This document shows positions 50,116-58,901 of a stretch of DNA of 64,000 nucleotides, piece after piece. The stretch is from Ignavibacteriota bacterium (GTDB lineage Bacteria > Bacteroidota > Ignavibacteria > Ignavibacteriales > Melioribacteraceae): the NCBI GenBank assembly GCA_013112585.1, contig JABFGH010000003.1, forward strand, positions 124,001 to 188,000. The letters are read 5' to 3'. The notes beneath the pieces are model-generated. The model made no database searches and was not told the DNA's origin. It saw only the letters and a program-made list of their open reading frames with translations. Every line of letters begins with the position of its first letter. Position 1 is the stretch's first letter. A program made the position numbers and the translations under genes.

Positions 50116-50144
50116 TTAGGCATGCTTAACTTTAATCTAAAGTT
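50116..50144. promoter_or_regulatory. Palindromes upstream of the dtxR-like gene, candidate operator
   Basis: Two adjacent inverted repeats lie 24-52 bases before the dtxR-like start: imperfect TTAGGCATGCTTAA (50116-50129) and perfect AACTTTA-ATC-TAAAGTT (50128-50144). They sit where a promoter for this locus must lie (a TTGATA is at 50104-50109). Autoregulation by the encoded repressor is an inference. Confidence 0.4.
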
Positions 50145-50167: not shown

Positions 50168-50821
50168 ATGTCAACAATTTCAAAAGAAAATTATTTAAAG
50201 ACTTTATACACAAAAGATAAAATTGAAAATGTTGTTGTAACAACATCGCAAATAGCAGAGAGTTTAAATGTAAGCAACGCTGCCACCAGCGAAATGGCAA
50301 AAAAATTATCTAATCAAGGCTTAGTTAATTACAAAAAGTATAAAGGAATTGAGCTGACTAATCGTGGTGAAAAGATTGCCCTGAATGTACTGCGAAGACA
50401 TCGGTTATGGGAATTATTTTTAATGGAAGTACTGAACCTTACCTGGGATGAAGTTCATGACGAAGCGGAATTACTCGAACATCAAACATCAGAAAATTTA
50501 ATTGATAAGATTGATGAATACTTGAATTTTCCGGAGTTTGATCCGCACGGTTCTCCCATACCTAACAAAAAGGGTAAACTGCCATTAATGCCTAAACTTA
50601 AACCGCTTTTAAGCGGTGAGGAGGGCGCCACATATAAGGTTGCAAGGGTAAGCGATAAAAACAGCGAGTTGATTAAGTATTTTACGAAAATAGGTTTGAC
50701 ACTAAATAAAAAAATAAAAATAATTGAGAAATTAACATTTGATAATTCGATTGTAATTGAACTGAACAATAGCAGTATAAGTCTGAGCGAAAAAACTGCT
50801 CAAAGTGTTTTTCTTAAATAA
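50168..50821 (+). CDS. DtxR/MntR-family metal-dependent regulator
   Basis: A 217-residue protein with an N-terminal winged helix (about 1-65), a dimerisation and metal-binding domain (66-135) and a C-terminal SH3/FeoA-like domain (about 140-217). Residues corresponding to DtxR metal ligands are His78, Glu82, His97, Glu101, Glu104 and His105. Glu101 replaces the Cys102 of DtxR, as in Mn-type MntR. The ligand expected near residue 8 is Asn. Such regulators bind operators when loaded with Fe2+ or Mn2+. Its position heading a Feo-like locus indicates control of metal uptake. Confidence 0.88.
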   Translation: MSTISKENYLKTLYTKDKIENVVVTTSQIAESLNVSNAATSEMAKKLSNQGLVNYKKYKGIELTNRGEKIALNVLRRHRLWELFLMEVLNLTWDEVHDEAELLEHQTSENLIDKIDEYLNFPEFDPHGSPIPNKKGKLPLMPKLKPLLSGEEGATYKVARVSDKNSELIKYFTKIGLTLNKKIKIIEKLTFDNSIVIELNNSSISLSEKTAQSVFLK

Positions 50822-50847: not shown

Positions 50848-51858
50848 TTGGTTGATCCAATTACTGCATTAATTTTTGCAGGTTTGTCGGCGGCAGTACT
50901 GGTAGTTCTGTTTCTGCCTAAAAAAGGAATTGCTGCCAGACTACGAAGAAGTAAATTAGACAGCAAGCGTGTTTTAATTGAAGATGCACTAAAACATATT
51001 TACGATTGTGAGTATAACAAATCTCACTCCTCGATAAACAGTGTTGCAGGCAACTTGAATATAAGTACCGATGCGGCAGCAAAATTAATTTCGCGTCTTG
51101 AAGAAATGGGATTGGTAGTTTCAGAAACGAGCTCTATTAATTTAACTGCTGAAGGCAGGTCTTATGCTCTTAGAGTAATAAGAATTCACAGAGTTTGGGA
51201 AAAGTATCTTTCCGAGGAAACAGGGGTTTCGGAAATGGATTGGCATGACGAAGCTGAAATTAAGGAACATACTTTAACAATTGATGAAGCTAACGATATC
51301 GCTAAAAGGCTTAATAATCCTCTGTTTGATCCTCACGGAGATCCTATTCCCTCATCAACAGGGCAGCTGCCTAAAAAAATAGGAATCCCAATTTCAGATT
51401 TAAAGACCGGTGAATTTGCACATATTATTCACTTGGAAGATGAACCGAATTCAATCTATGCGCAAATATTAGCAATGGGTTTATACCCGGGTATGCAAGT
51501 GCGAATGATCAGTGCATCTAACGAGAGAGTTGTGTTTGAGGCTAATAGCGAGGAAAAAGTTTTAACACCTTTGTTCGCTCAAAACATATCCGTTCAGCCC
51601 ACTGCCGAAACCGCAAAGGTTTATGAAGATTTTAAATTATTATCATCATTAAATAAAGGTGAAGAGGCTTCGGTGCTTGGGATATCAAAAGCTTGCAGGG
51701 GCAAGCAGAGAAGACGTTTAATGGATTTGGGATTTGTTCCCGGTACTAAAATATCCACACTTATGAAAAGTATTGGCGGAGACCCAATTGCTTTTCAATT
51801 AAGGGGAACTACTATTGCGTTACGAAAATCACAAGCTGATTTAATTTTTATTAAATAG
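50848..51858 (+). CDS. Membrane-anchored DtxR-like/FeoA-FeoA fusion protein
   Basis: A 336-residue protein with an unusual layout: an N-terminal membrane helix (about 5-23), a basic linker, a DtxR-like winged helix (about 40-100), a DtxR dimerisation/metal domain (101-165), a first FeoA/SH3 domain (about 178-252) and a second FeoA domain (262-336, ending AFQLRGTTIALRK). Ligand positions are occupied: Asp46, His114, Glu118, His133, Glu137, Glu140, His141. It is probably the FeoA component of the adjacent split FeoB, tethered to the membrane and able to sense metal. Whether it still binds DNA is open. The start is TTG, 26 bases after the regulator gene. Confidence 0.8.
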   Translation: MVDPITALIFAGLSAAVLVVLFLPKKGIAARLRRSKLDSKRVLIEDALKHIYDCEYNKSHSSINSVAGNLNISTDAAAKLISRLEEMGLVVSETSSINLTAEGRSYALRVIRIHRVWEKYLSEETGVSEMDWHDEAEIKEHTLTIDEANDIAKRLNNPLFDPHGDPIPSSTGQLPKKIGIPISDLKTGEFAHIIHLEDEPNSIYAQILAMGLYPGMQVRMISASNERVVFEANSEEKVLTPLFAQNISVQPTAETAKVYEDFKLLSSLNKGEEASVLGISKACRGKQRRRLMDLGFVPGTKISTLMKSIGGDPIAFQLRGTTIALRKSQADLIFIK

Positions 51859-51872
51859 AAAAAAGTAGAAAA

Positions 51873-52691
51873 ATGAATACACATAATTGCGAAACCTGCC
51901 CGGTGCACAATGTTTCAAATCTTACTAAGCTGGGTATTAATATGGAAAATTTTGATTACGTTGTTGCATTAGCGGGCAATCCGAATACAGGTAAAAGTAC
52001 CGTGTTTAATAACTTAACCGGTTTACGCCAGCATACGGGAAACTGGCCCGGGAAAACAGTTACACGTGCCGAAGGCGGATTTCAATTCAACAATAGTAAA
52101 TACAAACTAGTCGATCTGCCGGGTACATACTCGCTGTTATCAACCAGTACAGACGAAGAAGTTGCCCGTGATTTTATTTTATTTGGTCAGCCCGATGTTA
52201 CTGTTGTTGTTGTAGATGCAACACGGCTTGAACGGAATTTGAATCTTGTTCTGCAGGTTTTAGAAATTACCGACAGGGTAGTTGTATGCCTCAATTTAAT
52301 GGATGAAGCAAGGCGGCATAATCTATCTGTTGATGAACGCACTCTGATGAAAGAGCTTGGTGTACCGGTTGTTCCGGCTGCTGCCCGGCAAAAAGAGGGG
52401 ATGGATAATCTTCTTAAATACATTGATGAAGTTGCCACAGGCAAATTTGTGTGCAAGCCATTTAGAACAAAAAATAAATTAAAAGATTTAAGCAGGGCGG
52501 TCAGTAGTCTTTCAAAAATGATTGATAAGGAATTCCCCGGCTTACCTAACTCACGCTGGGTTGCTTTGCGGCTTCTTGAAGGAGATCAAAAAATTATTGA
52601 TGCAATTAGAGATGATGAACTGGGTAAACTTACGAGGACGGGTGATAAGAAAGAGGAAGAAGTTTTTATAGAGGAAAGTTTAAATGAATAA
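51873..52691 (+). CDS. FeoB GTPase domain protein (split FeoB, part 1)
   Basis: A 272-residue soluble protein corresponding only to the G domain and helical GDI-like domain of FeoB. G1 is GNPNTGKS (35-42), G2 lies around TGNWPGKT, G3 is DLPG (81-84), and G4 is NLMD (141-144). An N-terminal NCETCPVH motif adds two Cys and a His, a possible metal site absent from ordinary FeoB. It ends in an acidic tail without membrane helices. The permease part is encoded by the next gene, overlapping by 8 bases. The split looks natural, not a frameshift, because both parts have their own intact ends. Confidence 0.88.
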
Positions 52692-54126
52692 GAATGAAAC
52701 AATAAACTCAAGTTCGCGCGAGGCAATTATTGCTTCGGCAAATTCTATGAGATGGGAAGTCGGTGAAGATTTTCACGATACTTTAATGGAATCTATTTAC
52801 AGTGATGCAGCGGAAATTGCCGCGAAAACTGTAACGAAAACTGATGAGAAACAAATCTATCATTGGGATCAGAAAATTGACCGTATTGTTACGAGTAAGT
52901 TATTAGGTTTTCCGATTATGTTTCTACTGCTGGCATTGGTATTCTGGCTTACTGTTGAAGGGGCAAATGTTCCTTCAGCATTTCTGGCATCAATACTAAT
53001 TGATACAATTCATCCAATCTTAAAATCTGCTTCAGCCGGTATTGGTGTGCCCTGGTGGATTGACGGCGTTTTGATCGATGGAGCTTACCTTGCTATGGCA
53101 TGGGTTATCAGTGTTATGCTTCCGCCAATGGCAATATTTTTTCCGCTATTCACATTGTTGGAAGACTTTGGATATTTGCCGCGGGTAGCTTTTAATATGG
53201 ATAATTTGTTCAGGCGGGCAGGCGCACACGGCAAGCAGGCATTAACAATGAGTATGGGGTTCGGCTGTAACGCAGCAGGTGTAATTGCAACTAGAATTAT
53301 CGACAGCCCGCGCGAAAGAATTATAGCTATTATTACAAACAATTTTTCACTTTGTAACGGAAGGTGGCCTACTCAAATATTAATTGCATCTATTTTTATT
53401 GGTGCCGTTGTGCCTTCTCACTTAGCCGGGTTAGTTTCCGCCGGTGCTGTTGTTGCCATTGCCTTATTCGGAATTTTCTTAAGTCTTGTTGTTTCCTGGG
53501 GATTATCAAAATCGGTATTAAAAGGTGAAGTATCGGCATTTAGTTTAGAACTGCCGCCATATCGGCCGCCAAGAATTTTACAGACTTTATATACCTCGCT
53601 AATTGATAGAACAATTTTTGTGCTTTGGAGAGCAATTGTTTTTGCTGTTCCTGCCGGAATTGTAATCTGGTTAGTCGGCAATATTTATATTGGCGATTTG
53701 AGCATAGGTGAACATTTTATTAATTGGTCGAATCCTTTTGGGCTATTGCTCGGACTTAACGGAGTAATTCTACTTGCTTACATTATTGCAATACCGGCAA
53801 ACGAAATTGTTATTCCCACTATTTTAATGCTTACGGTTATGAGTGCCGGTATGGTTGGAGTTGGCGAGGGTTCCGGCGTGATGTTTGAATTGGACTCTGC
53901 AGCGGATACTGCAAAAATTCTTGAAGCCGGAGGATGGACATTACTTACAGGAATTAATTTAATGCTCTTCAGTCTTCTTCATAATCCTTGTTCAACTACA
54001 ATTTATACCATTTATAAAGAAACTAAAAGTGCTAAGTGGACTTTAATTTCGACACTATTGCCGGTTGCAATGGGATTTGCTTTAACATTTTTAGTTGCTC
54101 AAATTTGGTATCTGTTTGCTGCTTAA
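52684..54126 (+). CDS. FeoB permease domain protein (split FeoB, part 2)
   Basis: A 480-residue membrane protein: a soluble N-terminal stretch (about 1-70), then about ten helices with two gate regions. The first gate reads [20 protein letters not shown], where the FeoB GFGCNxP proline is replaced, and continues into [14 protein letters not shown]. The second gate region is near [18 protein letters not shown]. It forms the metal pore and should partner with the separate GTPase. It belongs to a class distinct from the complete FeoB at 56877. The substrate may be Fe2+ or Mn2+. Confidence 0.85.
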
Positions 54127-56658: not shown

Positions 56659-56880
56659 ATGAGAACGGCAGCAGAATTAAGTTTTGGTGAAAGAGCAACA
56701 ATCAACAATGTTAATCCAAGCCATCCGTCGTCAAGAAGAATAATGGAGATTGGGTTTACTCCCGGTCAGGAAATAGAATTAATAAATAAATCAGCGTTTA
56801 ATGATCCATTAGCTTTTTCACTTCGCGGTGCATTGATTGCAATACGTAAAAAGGAAGCCGAGTCAATAGAAATTGCATGA
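56659..56880 (+). CDS. feoA: FeoA ferrous iron transport accessory protein
   Basis: A 73-residue single SH3-like FeoA domain. It has SRRIMEIGFTPGQEIELI and DPLAFSLRGALIAIRKKEA, the two conserved blocks. FeoA assists FeoB in Fe2+ uptake, probably by binding its cytoplasmic domain. The start follows a regulatory gap with two palindromes. Its stop overlaps the feoB start (ATGA). Confidence 0.93.
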   Translation: MRTAAELSFGERATINNVNPSHPSSRRIMEIGFTPGQEIELINKSAFNDPLAFSLRGALIAIRKKEAESIEIA

Positions 56881-58901
56881 GTATGCAGCAAGTTGGTCTA
56901 AAAAAGCTTATCACATTAGTTGGTCCTCCTAATTCGGGCAAAACCACTCTATTTAATTTTTTAAGCGGTAAAAACTGTAAAACCGTAAATTACCCCGGTT
57001 CTACTGTTGAATATTCTTCCTGTAAAATTCAAGCTAAATTTAATTTGAATGCTGAGTTACTCGACTCGCCGGGGATAATAAGTCTAATACCAAATTCCCC
57101 CGATGAAAAAGTTGCAATAGATTCAATTTATGATCATCCCGAATTCGGACACCCCGATTTAGTAATTGTCACTGTCGATTCAAGTCAGCTTTCCCGCCAT
57201 TTACTTCTCGTAAAGCAGTTAATTGATTCTAACTTTAGAGTAATCTTAGCTTTAACGATGAATGATATTCTAATTAAAAAAGGAATGAAAATTTCAGTTT
57301 CTAAATTAAAAGAAGAACTGAATTGCGAGGTAATTAGTATTGATGGAAGGCTTGGCAGCGGAGTTGACAGCTTAATACAGAAAACTGACGAAATCCTAAA
57401 CGATGATTCTTATGATTCTTCTCAGATTAAAGTCCCGCAATTTGACAATGATTATCTGCTTAGCTCTTTCAAAGAAATTGAGCGTATTGAAGATTTAGTA
57501 ATTGAAGATATTGAAGATGAAGATACAGAACCATCTGCTGTAACCGGCAGTATAGGAAAAGTTGTTCCCCCAAAAATTAAAACTTTTAAGCCCGACTTAA
57601 ACACATTGTTAATTGATAGATATTTGCTGCATAGAGTTTGGGGATTGTTGTTTTTCTTTTTAATAATGGGGCTTACATTCACATCGATTTTTTGGGCGGC
57701 AATTCCTTTAATGGATTTAATTGACAGTGCATTCGGATTTTTGGCTGGGGCAGCAAAGGATTCATTAGGCTCAAATTGGTTCAGTGATTTAATTTCTGAC
57801 GGAATAATAAGCGGCGCAGGCAGTGTTTTAGTTTTTGTTCCGCAGATAATAATTTTGTTTTTAATTTTAGGCGTGCTGGAAGATACCGGCTATCTTGCCC
57901 GCGGAGCTATGCTAATTGATAAACCTCTTTCAAAAATAGGGCTGAACGGAAGGTCTTTTGTTCCGATGCTTTCAGGTTTTGCTTGTGCAATTCCGGCAAT
58001 TATGGCTGCTAGAACAATTCCTAATAAACGTGAAAGACTTCTTACAATATTTATTATACCCTTGATGAGCTGCAGCGCAAGGCTTCCGGTTTATGCTCTT
58101 CTTATAGCTTATTTAACTCCGCGCGATTCCATTTGGGCAGGGGGAATTGCATTAGCGGCAATTTATATTTTTTCTATTGTGTCTTCATTAGTTGTTGCCG
58201 GTATAATAAATAAATTCAGCAAAGGTATATTAAAAGAGGAAGATGATTCATCTTTTATTTTAGAATTACCGGCATATCGAATTCCAAAACTTAAAGTTGT
58301 TTTGAATAATACTTACTACAGTTCTAAAATGTACTTAAAAAAAGCCGGTCCAATAATTTTATTTTTCTCAATAATACTTTGGATGCTTACTTATTTCCCA
58401 AATACAAATCCTCAAATAAACACACAAGGATTAACGGAACCCGAAATTGAAGCTGCTGTAAATGCCGAAAGATTAGCAGATTCCTATGCAGCAGATATTG
58501 GAAAGATTATAGAACCGATAATGACTCCAATTGGAATGGATTGGAGAGTTGGAGTTTCGTTAATAGCTGCGTTTACGGCACGCGAAGTTTTTGTTAGTGC
58601 GCTTGCATTAATATTTAAAGTTACTGATAGCGATGAAGATGCAATTCAAAGTTCAATATTAAAGGCTATGCGGGATGCTAAAATTGAGAGTACGGGTGAG
58701 AAACTATTTACACCGGCAACAATTGTAGGACTAATTGTATTTTTTATGTTTGCTTTACAGTGCTTATCAACGGTAGCCGTTTCAAAAAAAGAAACCGGCG
58801 GATGGAGAATCCCCATACTGCAAATAATCGTATTCACTTCAACTGCTTATCTGCTTGCTTTTATTACTGTTAACGGATTAAGATTTCTTGGTGTAAGCTG
58901 A
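56877..58901 (+). CDS. feoB: Ferrous iron transport protein B, complete FeoB
   Basis: A 674-residue full-length FeoB. The G domain has G1 GPPNSGKT (16-23), G3 DSPG (usually DLPG) and G4 in LTMNDI. An acidic linker (about 200-230) leads to the membrane part with about ten helices. The first gate reads SGFACAIPAIMAARTI, then MSCSARLPVYALL, the usual pattern for Bacteroidota FeoB. It imports Fe2+, with GTP binding opening or regulating the channel. It is translationally coupled to feoA and distinct from the split FeoB at 51873-54126. Confidence 0.94.
   Translation: MSMQQVGLKKLITLVGPPNSGKTTLFNFLSGKNCKTVNYPGSTVEYSSCKIQAKFNLNAELLDSPGIISLIPNSPDEKVAIDSIYDHPEFGHPDLVIVTVDSSQLSRHLLLVKQLIDSNFRVILALTMNDILIKKGMKISVSKLKEELNCEVISIDGRLGSGVDSLIQKTDEILNDDSYDSSQIKVPQFDNDYLLSSFKEIERIEDLVIEDIEDEDTEPSAVTGSIGKVVPPKIKTFKPDLNTLLIDRYLLHRVWGLLFFFLIMGLTFTSIFWAAIPLMDLIDSAFGFLAGAAKDSLGSNWFSDLISDGIISGAGSVLVFVPQIIILFLILGVLEDTGYLARGAMLIDKPLSKIGLNGRSFVPMLSGFACAIPAIMAARTIPNKRERLLTIFIIPLMSCSARLPVYALLIAYLTPRDSIWAGGIALAAIYIFSIVSSLVVAGIINKFSKGILKEEDDSSFILELPAYRIPKLKVVLNNTYYSSKMYLKKAGPIILFFSIILWMLTYFPNTNPQINTQGLTEPEIEAAVNAERLADSYAADIGKIIEPIMTPIGMDWRVGVSLIAAFTAREVFVSALALIFKVTDSDEDAIQSSILKAMRDAKIESTGEKLFTPATIVGLIVFFMFALQCLSTVAVSKKETGGWRIPILQIIVFTSTAYLLAFITVNGLRFLGVS

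Follow-up and report, generated by a model that had tools for sequence, protein, structure and literature searches.

Within the window, that is, the whole 64,000-nucleotide stretch of DNA that was analysed, a gene encoding a membrane-tethered DtxR-type module followed by two FeoA domains is flanked 5' by the gene for a soluble DtxR protein with a FeoA domain and 3' by the genes for the GTPase half (FeoB_N) and then the permease half of FeoB. The open reading frame, the domain order and these neighbours (a soluble DtxR-like regulator and a split FeoB) had been proposed in a preliminary description of the sequence, and all of them were confirmed by the list of open reading frames and by Pfam. 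The features of the locus, in window positions, are as follows:

50116..50129, no strand assigned: DtxR-type operator TTAGGCATGCTTAA, an imperfect palindrome, 52 bases 5' of the start codon of the soluble dtxR gene
50168..50821, + strand: soluble DtxR-family regulator with winged helix, metal domain and one FeoA/SH3 domain (Pfam)
50848..51858, + strand: membrane-tethered DtxR-FeoA1-FeoA2 protein of 336 aa, with a TTG start
50857..50928, + strand: transmembrane (TM) helix and P24..G27 junction of the tethered protein, residues 4-27 (AlphaFold2 helix 4-22; hhalign)
50977..51144, + strand: winged-helix domain, residues 44-99 (PF01325), with the fold retained and the DNA-facing positions drifting (site rates, conservation columns)
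51145..51351, + strand: metal-binding and dimerisation domain, residues 100-168 (PF02742, 75 bits; ligand counts)
51385..51597, + strand: FeoA1/SH3 domain, approximately residues 180-250, with HxEDEP at 195-200 (Pfam)
51640..51852, + strand: FeoA2 domain, residues 265-335 (Pfam; replacement by free FeoA)
51873..52691, + strand: GTPase half of FeoB, FeoB_N, 272 aa (PF02421, 206 bits)
52684..54126, + strand: permease half of FeoB, 480 aa (PF07670 and PF07664; phylum survey)

In the tethered protein, Pfam placed the winged helix barely above threshold (PF01325 at residues 44-93, 26.5 bits against a cut-off of 26), and recognised the metal domain at residues 100-168 and FeoA (PF04023) in two stretches (89.8 bits). 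The AlphaFold2 model (mean pLDDT 87.0, pTM 0.71) shows helix 4-22 followed by a single continuous helix, 28-56, that runs into the winged helix. Its top PDB matches in Foldseek were Mn- and Fe-dependent repressors, led by the Mn-dependent repressor 5zr6 (TMt 0.91, 213 columns). A second, ordinary Feo system, made up of FeoA and a full-length FeoB, lies at 56659-58901, approximately 2.5 kb downstream; the exact operator is found only 5' of the first system, and the two systems may therefore differ in metal or regulator.

Membrane anchor, metal ligands and linkage to FeoB

The N-terminal membrane helix and the TTG start put forward in the preliminary description are supported by the homologues, in which such a helix is usual. 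Among 41 orthologues (L001-L041, counting the window's own protein), the best 19-residue stretch before the DtxR part had a mean Kyte-Doolittle value of approximately 1.8 or more in every case. This stretch is preceded by an ATG in 33 orthologues, one of which (L002) has its ATG at the residue matching the TTG of the window, and by TTG or GTG in 6; no start codon was found before it in L016 and L041. A wrongly called start codon was considered as an explanation of the helix and was rejected for most orthologues, given the ATG ahead of the hydrophobic stretch in 33 of the 41. Over the first 78 residues at 69 matched loci, this best-stretch hydropathy had a median of 2.47 (minimum 0.62) for the tethered proteins versus 0.49 (maximum 1.42) for the soluble DtxRs. 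With a threshold of 1.5, a hydrophobic anchor was detected in all 39 regions of the phylum set and in 73 of the 80 loci of the named collection, which holds the best 80 of 592 confirmed stretches and overlaps the phylum set in some genomes (e.g. L082 and L042). The seven anchor-free loci among these best 80 comprise two cut at a contig end (L108 and L159), one incomplete match (L161) and four seemingly complete distant homologues that lie 5' of FeoB and have no TM helix (L147, L152, L154 and L155). The latter four may be secondary losses of the anchor, or may reflect a soluble form like PgMntR, which is described below. Directly after the TM helix, the tethered protein carries a basic stretch. 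According to the positive-inside rule, the basic flank of a TM helix marks its cytoplasmic side, and the DtxR part is therefore predicted to be cytoplasmic.

Judged by its residues, the tethered protein still looks like a metal sensor, and the features by which DtxR/MntR proteins are recognised, a winged helix and a metal/dimerisation domain with conserved ligands, are present (Pfam, 110 homologues, Foldseek match to 5zr6). Conservation was counted after dropping identical and >90% identical sequences and adding the window, which took the tethered set from 116 through 113 to 110 sequences and the soluble set from 73 through 71 to 70. Over the 110 non-redundant homologues, drawn from many phyla, H114, E118, H133, E140, H141, D161, D165, H195 and D198 are invariant; position 46 has D in 105 sequences (N in the other 5), 84 sequences have E and 12 have D at position 137, and E197 and E199 are retained in 108 and 106, respectively. 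All seven ligand residues on which the preliminary description had based its functional-looking sensor (D46, H114, E118, H133, E137, E140 and H141) are present and largely conserved, with 79 of the 110 homologues identical to the window at every one of them. The MntR ligand Glu11 presumably corresponds to Lys49 of the tethered protein, which is kept in 108 of the 110. On the sequences compared, the HxEDEP motif of FeoA1 (195-200) is specific to the tethered family, where it is invariant or nearly so; it is not the consensus of the soluble paralogues, 73% of which carry Arg at 195 and in which positions 197, 199 and 200 lack a strong consensus. The combination of D46, E137, E140 and H141 corresponds to the set called Mn-specific for B. 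subtilis MntR (PMC4805248).

In all 39 phylum regions the next gene after the tethered gene encodes FeoB, split in 37 and unsplit in 2, and the Feo hallmark of a FeoA domain encoded beside feoB is thereby present throughout. Among the best 80 of 592 stretches in the named collection, FeoB is split in 51 loci, unsplit in 23 and represented by at least FeoB_N in 4; the other two (L100 and L161) end inside the gene. Where FeoB_N stands alone (4 of 78), three loci end shortly after it (L116, L156 and L158) and one, L140, has no recognised permease. Being the best-scoring stretches, these loci leave room for low-scoring relatives without FeoB. The taxa represented among them include Bacteroidetes, Ignavibacteriae, Balneolales, Calditrichaeota, Chlorobiota, Verrucomicrobia, Gemmatimonadetes, Chloroflexi, Acidobacteria, Myxococcales and Planctomycetota, with Maribacter (L095) and Cyclobacterium (L120) among the carriers. 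The permease fusion L081 was excluded from the tethered-family counts. The preliminary description had suggested testing whether the architecture always co-occurs with a split FeoB: the tie to FeoB stood, and the restriction to the split form did not (unsplit in 2 of 39 regions, and in 23 of the best 80 of 592). The architecture without a linked FeoB, a candidate pattern that was looked for, occurred in none of the 41 surveyed genomes carrying the tethered protein; among the best 80 of 592, FeoB is present in 78 loci, the exceptions being the two that end inside the gene.

The role of the second FeoA domain was approached through genomes that carry the permease and lack the tethered protein. 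A full-length tethered protein (E ≤1e-60) was detected in 41 of 395 phylum genomes and the FeoB permease (E ≤1e-100) in 46 of 395, with all 41 of the former among the 46 and the permease lying within an unsplit FeoB in two. Five genomes have the permease without the tethered protein. One of these, G011, is cut at a contig end, and in the other four (G175, G211, G100 and G189) a free FeoA ORF with a called length of 77-122 aa immediately precedes FeoB_N. In each of the four, the best match of this ORF among six references was FeoA2 (38-47%). Because a free FeoA stands in its place in 4/4 genomes, FeoA2 is read as the FeoA subunit of the FeoB transporter, the tethered sensor being an addition in front of it.

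The N-terminus of the split FeoB_N (window 51873-51960) carries a CxxC extension, in the form CxxCP[VAI]HN in the window and in 12 examples. A CxxC precedes the G domain of split FeoB_N in 35 of 37 loci, and FeoB_N starts without it in three of four free-FeoA loci (L162, L164 and L165). A possible role for this CxxC is that of a metal or redox site associated with the tethered sensor.

DNA-facing surface and operator

The positions of the tethered protein that would touch DNA were assigned from the known DtxR fold, which we take to apply here. Site rates were computed under LG+G4 on fixed FastTree trees for 69 matched loci, and the recognition helix, whose comparison with that of the soluble DtxR had been suggested as a check in the preliminary description, drifts in the tethered protein with a mean rate of 1.70 versus 0.59 in the soluble one. 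The wing behaves alike (1.89 versus 0.93), and the two elements thus change at 2-3 times the rate of their counterparts in the soluble DtxR. Mean rates elsewhere were 0.53 versus 0.86 in helix 1, 1.03 versus 1.09 in helix 2, 0.84 versus 0.67 in the metal domain (100-143) and 1.09 versus 1.49 in FeoA1. Since the rates of these other segments are near the soluble values or lower, only the recognition helix and wing have lost constraint; they also differ in rate from the metal domain (Mann-Whitney p=7e-6). Positive charge has been lost as well, the mean net charge of residues 58-99 being -0.9 in the tethered versus +2.0 in the soluble proteins. Mean information content was 0.47 versus 0.56 in the winged-helix region, and 0.67 versus 0.68 in the metal domains. 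Among 30 close genomes, in pairs with 70-80% metal-domain identity, the recognition helix was 37% identical in the tethered protein (75 pairs) versus 75% in the soluble one (76 pairs), the pairs being mutually dependent; because the drift is also seen at this short range, it does not stem only from deep divergence. Conservation of the DNA-contacting recognition helix and wing, a hallmark of the DtxR/MntR family, is evident in the soluble DtxR (70 homologues) and is absent from the tethered protein, which no longer looks like a sequence-specific reader of DNA. Rapid change of the recognition helix could alternatively reflect operators that are specific to each lineage.

The distribution of the operator points in the same direction. 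Allowing for at most one mismatch, TTARGYNNRCYTAA was found in 32 of 40 operon upstream regions, versus a mean of 0.82 and a maximum of 3 in shuffled sequences. It is present in 32 of the 35 loci with a soluble DtxR (missing in L056, L060 and L078) and in none of the 5 without (Fisher p=8.5e-5, for loci that are related and not independent). In the genomes that have neither soluble gene nor operator (G001, G417, G365, G045 and G070), the tethered protein is the sole match to the soluble query, at E 1e-6; the congeners G131 and G089 carry both genes together with the operator. In the 4.94 Mb genome of the window, TTARGYATRCYTAA occurs without mismatch in one place, 50116-50129, and with at most one mismatch it is no commoner than a reversed-pattern control (26 versus 38). 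In 34 of the 39 regions the soluble gene precedes the tethered gene on the same strand, adjoining it except in L043, where it is approximately 2.2 kb away. The operator thus tracks the soluble DtxR and not the tethered protein, and the soluble DtxR is likely the transcriptional repressor of the operon.

For the distant loci, scored in 77 of the 80 (the best 80 of 592) with the consensus of the close set, the picture is mixed. Of 48 loci lacking a soluble neighbour, 13 have the box; of 29 with such a neighbour, 10 lack it at the close-set consensus. When 12 of the 13 box-bearing genomes were searched, a second DtxR match was obtained in all, that of L102 being a fragment only; the thirteenth locus, L110, has a soluble DtxR inside the locus. 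An operator kept with its gene, as is typical of DtxR/MntR regulators, is therefore not seen for the tethered protein in the close set (0/5 tethered-only loci), and is seen inconsistently in distant phyla.

Relation to ABC permease-DtxR fusions

A link that did not figure in the preliminary description connects the tethered protein with fusions between an ABC permease and a DtxR module, which were found in 21 of 296 phylum genomes (E ≤1e-60; L194-L214). Aligned with hhalign, residues 1-43 of the tethered protein matched the last TM helix and linker of the fusions with a probability of 90, a score of 39.9 and a pairwise E of 1.9e-7. Windows including the P..G junction scored 26.7, 38.9 and 39.9; a window holding most of the last helix and ending before P..G scored 9.9, and unrelated stretches scored at most 11.7. 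Since permease stretches that end earlier do not exceed 11.7, the match rests on the end of the helix, the P..G and the basic linker. The spacing from P..G to the first Glu of helix 1 is exactly 21 residues in 85 of 108 tethered proteins and in 19 of 21 permease fusions. Unfused Mn ABC permeases from the PDB (7kyo and 7kyp) align via the same helix up to its Pro-Lys end, and lack the Gly; the helix is therefore the permease's own, and the simplest origin for the FeoA form is a permease-DtxR fusion. Only one hydrophobic helix precedes the DtxR part of the tethered protein, where a complete ABC-3 permease domain is not found, and in a Pfam search with 25 orthologues (E up to 10) the anchor matched no ABC-3 permease family among the 25 families listed of 46; the likeness came out in the profile comparison with the fusions alone.

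In an unrooted tree of 39 tethered, 35 soluble, 21 fusion and 2 PDB sequences, the DtxR modules of the tethered FeoA type and of the permease fusions form one clade apart from the soluble proteins (support 0.995; 0.985 with the metal domain alone). Together with the hhalign match (probability 90), this identifies in the tethered protein the trait that defines the fusions, the attachment of a DtxR module to a permease's last TM helix. Of the 21 fusion loci, 20 were fetched with their flanks (L215-L234), and in 15 of these a soluble DtxR precedes the fusion on the same strand, as in the pairing at Feo loci; 4 of these 15 soluble genes have a box with at most one mismatch to the close-set consensus. 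Mean conservation of the DNA-facing positions was 0.43 in the fusions, a value inflated by the small sample (21 sequences), 0.61 in the soluble DtxRs and 0.36 in the tethered FeoA family. We consider it an even bet that a single lineage of DNA-blind, tethered DtxR modules serves two unrelated transporter classes, MntB/TroC-type ABC permeases and FeoA-FeoB, as a built-in gauge of cytosolic metal.

Proposed role and comparison with known systems

The preliminary description had left two readings side by side, a FeoA part of the transporter and a membrane-bound transcription factor. The substitution by free FeoA, the drift of the DNA-facing surface and the association of the operator with the soluble DtxR favour the former and disfavour the latter. 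We propose, with a probability of roughly 0.6, that the tethered protein is the FeoA subunit of a Feo transporter, equipped with a built-in, cytoplasm-facing metal sensor for feedback control, and is not a transcription factor. The N-terminal helix, whose simplest origin would be the last TM helix of a Mn/Zn ABC-permease-DtxR fusion, would tether a DtxR/MntR-type module, presumably a dimer, at the inner face of the membrane. This module would have stopped reading specific DNA and would instead read cytosolic Fe2+ or Mn2+ via its retained sites, passing the metal state to the C-terminal FeoA2, which would be docked on the FeoB GTPase. Metal occupancy would alter the contact between FeoA2 and the GTPase, such that at high cytosolic metal the loaded sensor would withdraw or reposition FeoA2 and import would be reduced; that gating would take this direction, off at high metal, we infer from physiology. 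The neighbouring soluble DtxR would exert a slower, transcriptional control via the operator at 50116. FeoA is reported to slow GTP hydrolysis by FeoB, and the same work asks which signal removes it at repletion (PMC8980893); for that signal, a sensor in one chain with FeoA would be the simplest candidate.

Other readings of the same protein must be weighed against this one. The DtxR part could be a mere scaffold, a relic that places FeoA2 at the membrane and in which metal stabilises the fold and carries no signal. Structural metal sites are common, and FeoA2 alone suffices in the four free-FeoA genomes; yet the ligands and the added HxEDEP are conserved across phyla despite the drift of the DNA surface, and since a plain anchor would need neither, such a scaffold seems decidedly unlikely. 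Less probable again is a membrane decoy, in which the tethered protein would pair with the soluble DtxR via the dimerisation domain and keep it off DNA according to the state of the transporter. The conserved metal/dimerisation domain would suit such a role, as would the position of the soluble gene, ahead of the tethered one and on its strand in 34 of 39 Feo regions and likewise placed in 15 of 20 permease-fusion loci, but the tethered gene persists in the five genomes with no other match to the soluble query, and is also found in other phyla with an unlinked soluble gene.

A transcription factor that is membrane-bound or, like YtgR, released by proteolysis, and that reports the state of the transporter to genes, is likewise unlikely. 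The winged-helix fold is kept in the AlphaFold2 model, the tether is of the kind found in YtgC-YtgR, for which a cleaved repressor has been reported (PMC5599777), and the box occurs in 13 of 48 distant loci without an adjacent soluble gene (best 80 of 592). Against this, the DNA-facing surface drifts fast and has lost positive charge, both of which the paired soluble DtxR keeps; the five genomes with the tethered protein only have no operator; and the lone exact operator in the genome of the window is explained by the adjacent soluble DtxR. PgMntR, a relative that is soluble and carries twin FeoA domains, reportedly binds DNA (PMC4805248); this speaks for a transcription factor and is the main fact against the FeoA-subunit reading.

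If the reading given even odds above, a single lineage serving two transporter classes, is true, a fast post-translational loop and a slow transcriptional loop would be built from one sensor fold within one operon, often as a pair, and in Feo systems the tethered sensor would supply the signal on which FeoA leaves FeoB at repletion. With the metal sensor in the same chain as FeoA, the question of how FeoB is shut down becomes directly testable in one protein. The results also suggest that some of the proteins now bearing the name of DtxR-family transcriptional regulators belong to transporters. Twin-FeoA DtxR proteins and permease-DtxR fusions are already known; for a membrane-tethered DtxR serving as the FeoA subunit of a transporter, with evidence of an abandoned DNA surface, no description was found in the open-access literature, subscription papers lying mostly outside the search.

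The repressors MntR, DtxR and IdeR (5zr6, 8pvt, 1u8r and others) share the fold and the metal ligands with the tethered protein, and differ from it in having neither FeoA2 nor a TM helix; we take the structures 5zr6, 8pvt and 1u8r, in keeping with their PDB titles, to be soluble DNA-binding repressors. FeoC of Klebsiella is a winged-helix protein that binds NFeoB, and so offers, by description, a likeness in a winged-helix protein acting on FeoB and not on DNA; to our knowledge it has no DtxR metal domain, no anchor and no FeoA. In the fused FeoAB of B. fragilis, FeoA is reported to slow GTP hydrolysis by NFeoB, and the Discussion of that study postulates an unknown signal that dislodges FeoA at metal repletion (PMC8980893). 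FeoA is placed with FeoB there as it is here, but unlike here no sensor domain forms part of the protein as that paper presents it; its authors state that FeoA-DtxR fusions were removed from their dataset by hand. YtgC-YtgR of Chlamydia is an ABC permease-DtxR fusion whose YtgR part reportedly undergoes cleavage and acts as a transcriptional repressor (PMC5599777). This and other fusions resemble the tethered protein in carrying the DtxR module on the last TM helix of a transporter, the matching junction and common clade having been obtained with L194-L214 and the likeness to YtgC-YtgR itself being one of description; they differ in having an ABC permease domain where the tethered protein has FeoA and FeoB.

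Another close comparison is with PgMntR, a soluble DtxR from Porphyromonas gingivalis that ends in twin FeoA domains and is encoded in the operon of the FeoB-type Mn importer FB2; it is reported to bind its own promoter region in vitro, and to lose both DNA and Mn binding without FeoA2 (PMC4805248). A search for PgMntR-like soluble twin-FeoA proteins in 20 phylum genomes, with 8 loci read by eye, revealed no second FeoA, and the frames of 323-324 aa that it yielded had long N-terminal open frames. PgMntR and the tethered protein share the order of HTH, metal domain, FeoA and FeoA, beside a FeoB-type transporter. As far as published residue numbers, and not a sequence alignment, allow the comparison, PgMntR His85, Glu89, His104, Cys108, Glu111 and His112 correspond to H114, E118, H133, E137, E140 and H141 at an offset of 29, and its Asp132, His134, His166, Asp169 and Glu170 to D161, H163, H195, D198 and E199 at the same offset, at which its FeoA2 (236-310) also stands relative to that of the tethered protein (265-335). 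Because the ligands keep this constant offset, a relative of the tethered architecture can be a DNA binder. PgMntR is soluble (up to 50 mg/ml), has no TM anchor among the features its report describes, and has Cys where the tethered protein has Glu137. The tethered protein thus has the two FeoA domains after the DtxR module that mark the PgMntR type and is set apart from it by its membrane anchor, by its drifted DNA surface and by the separate soluble DtxR, with an operator, that accompanies it.
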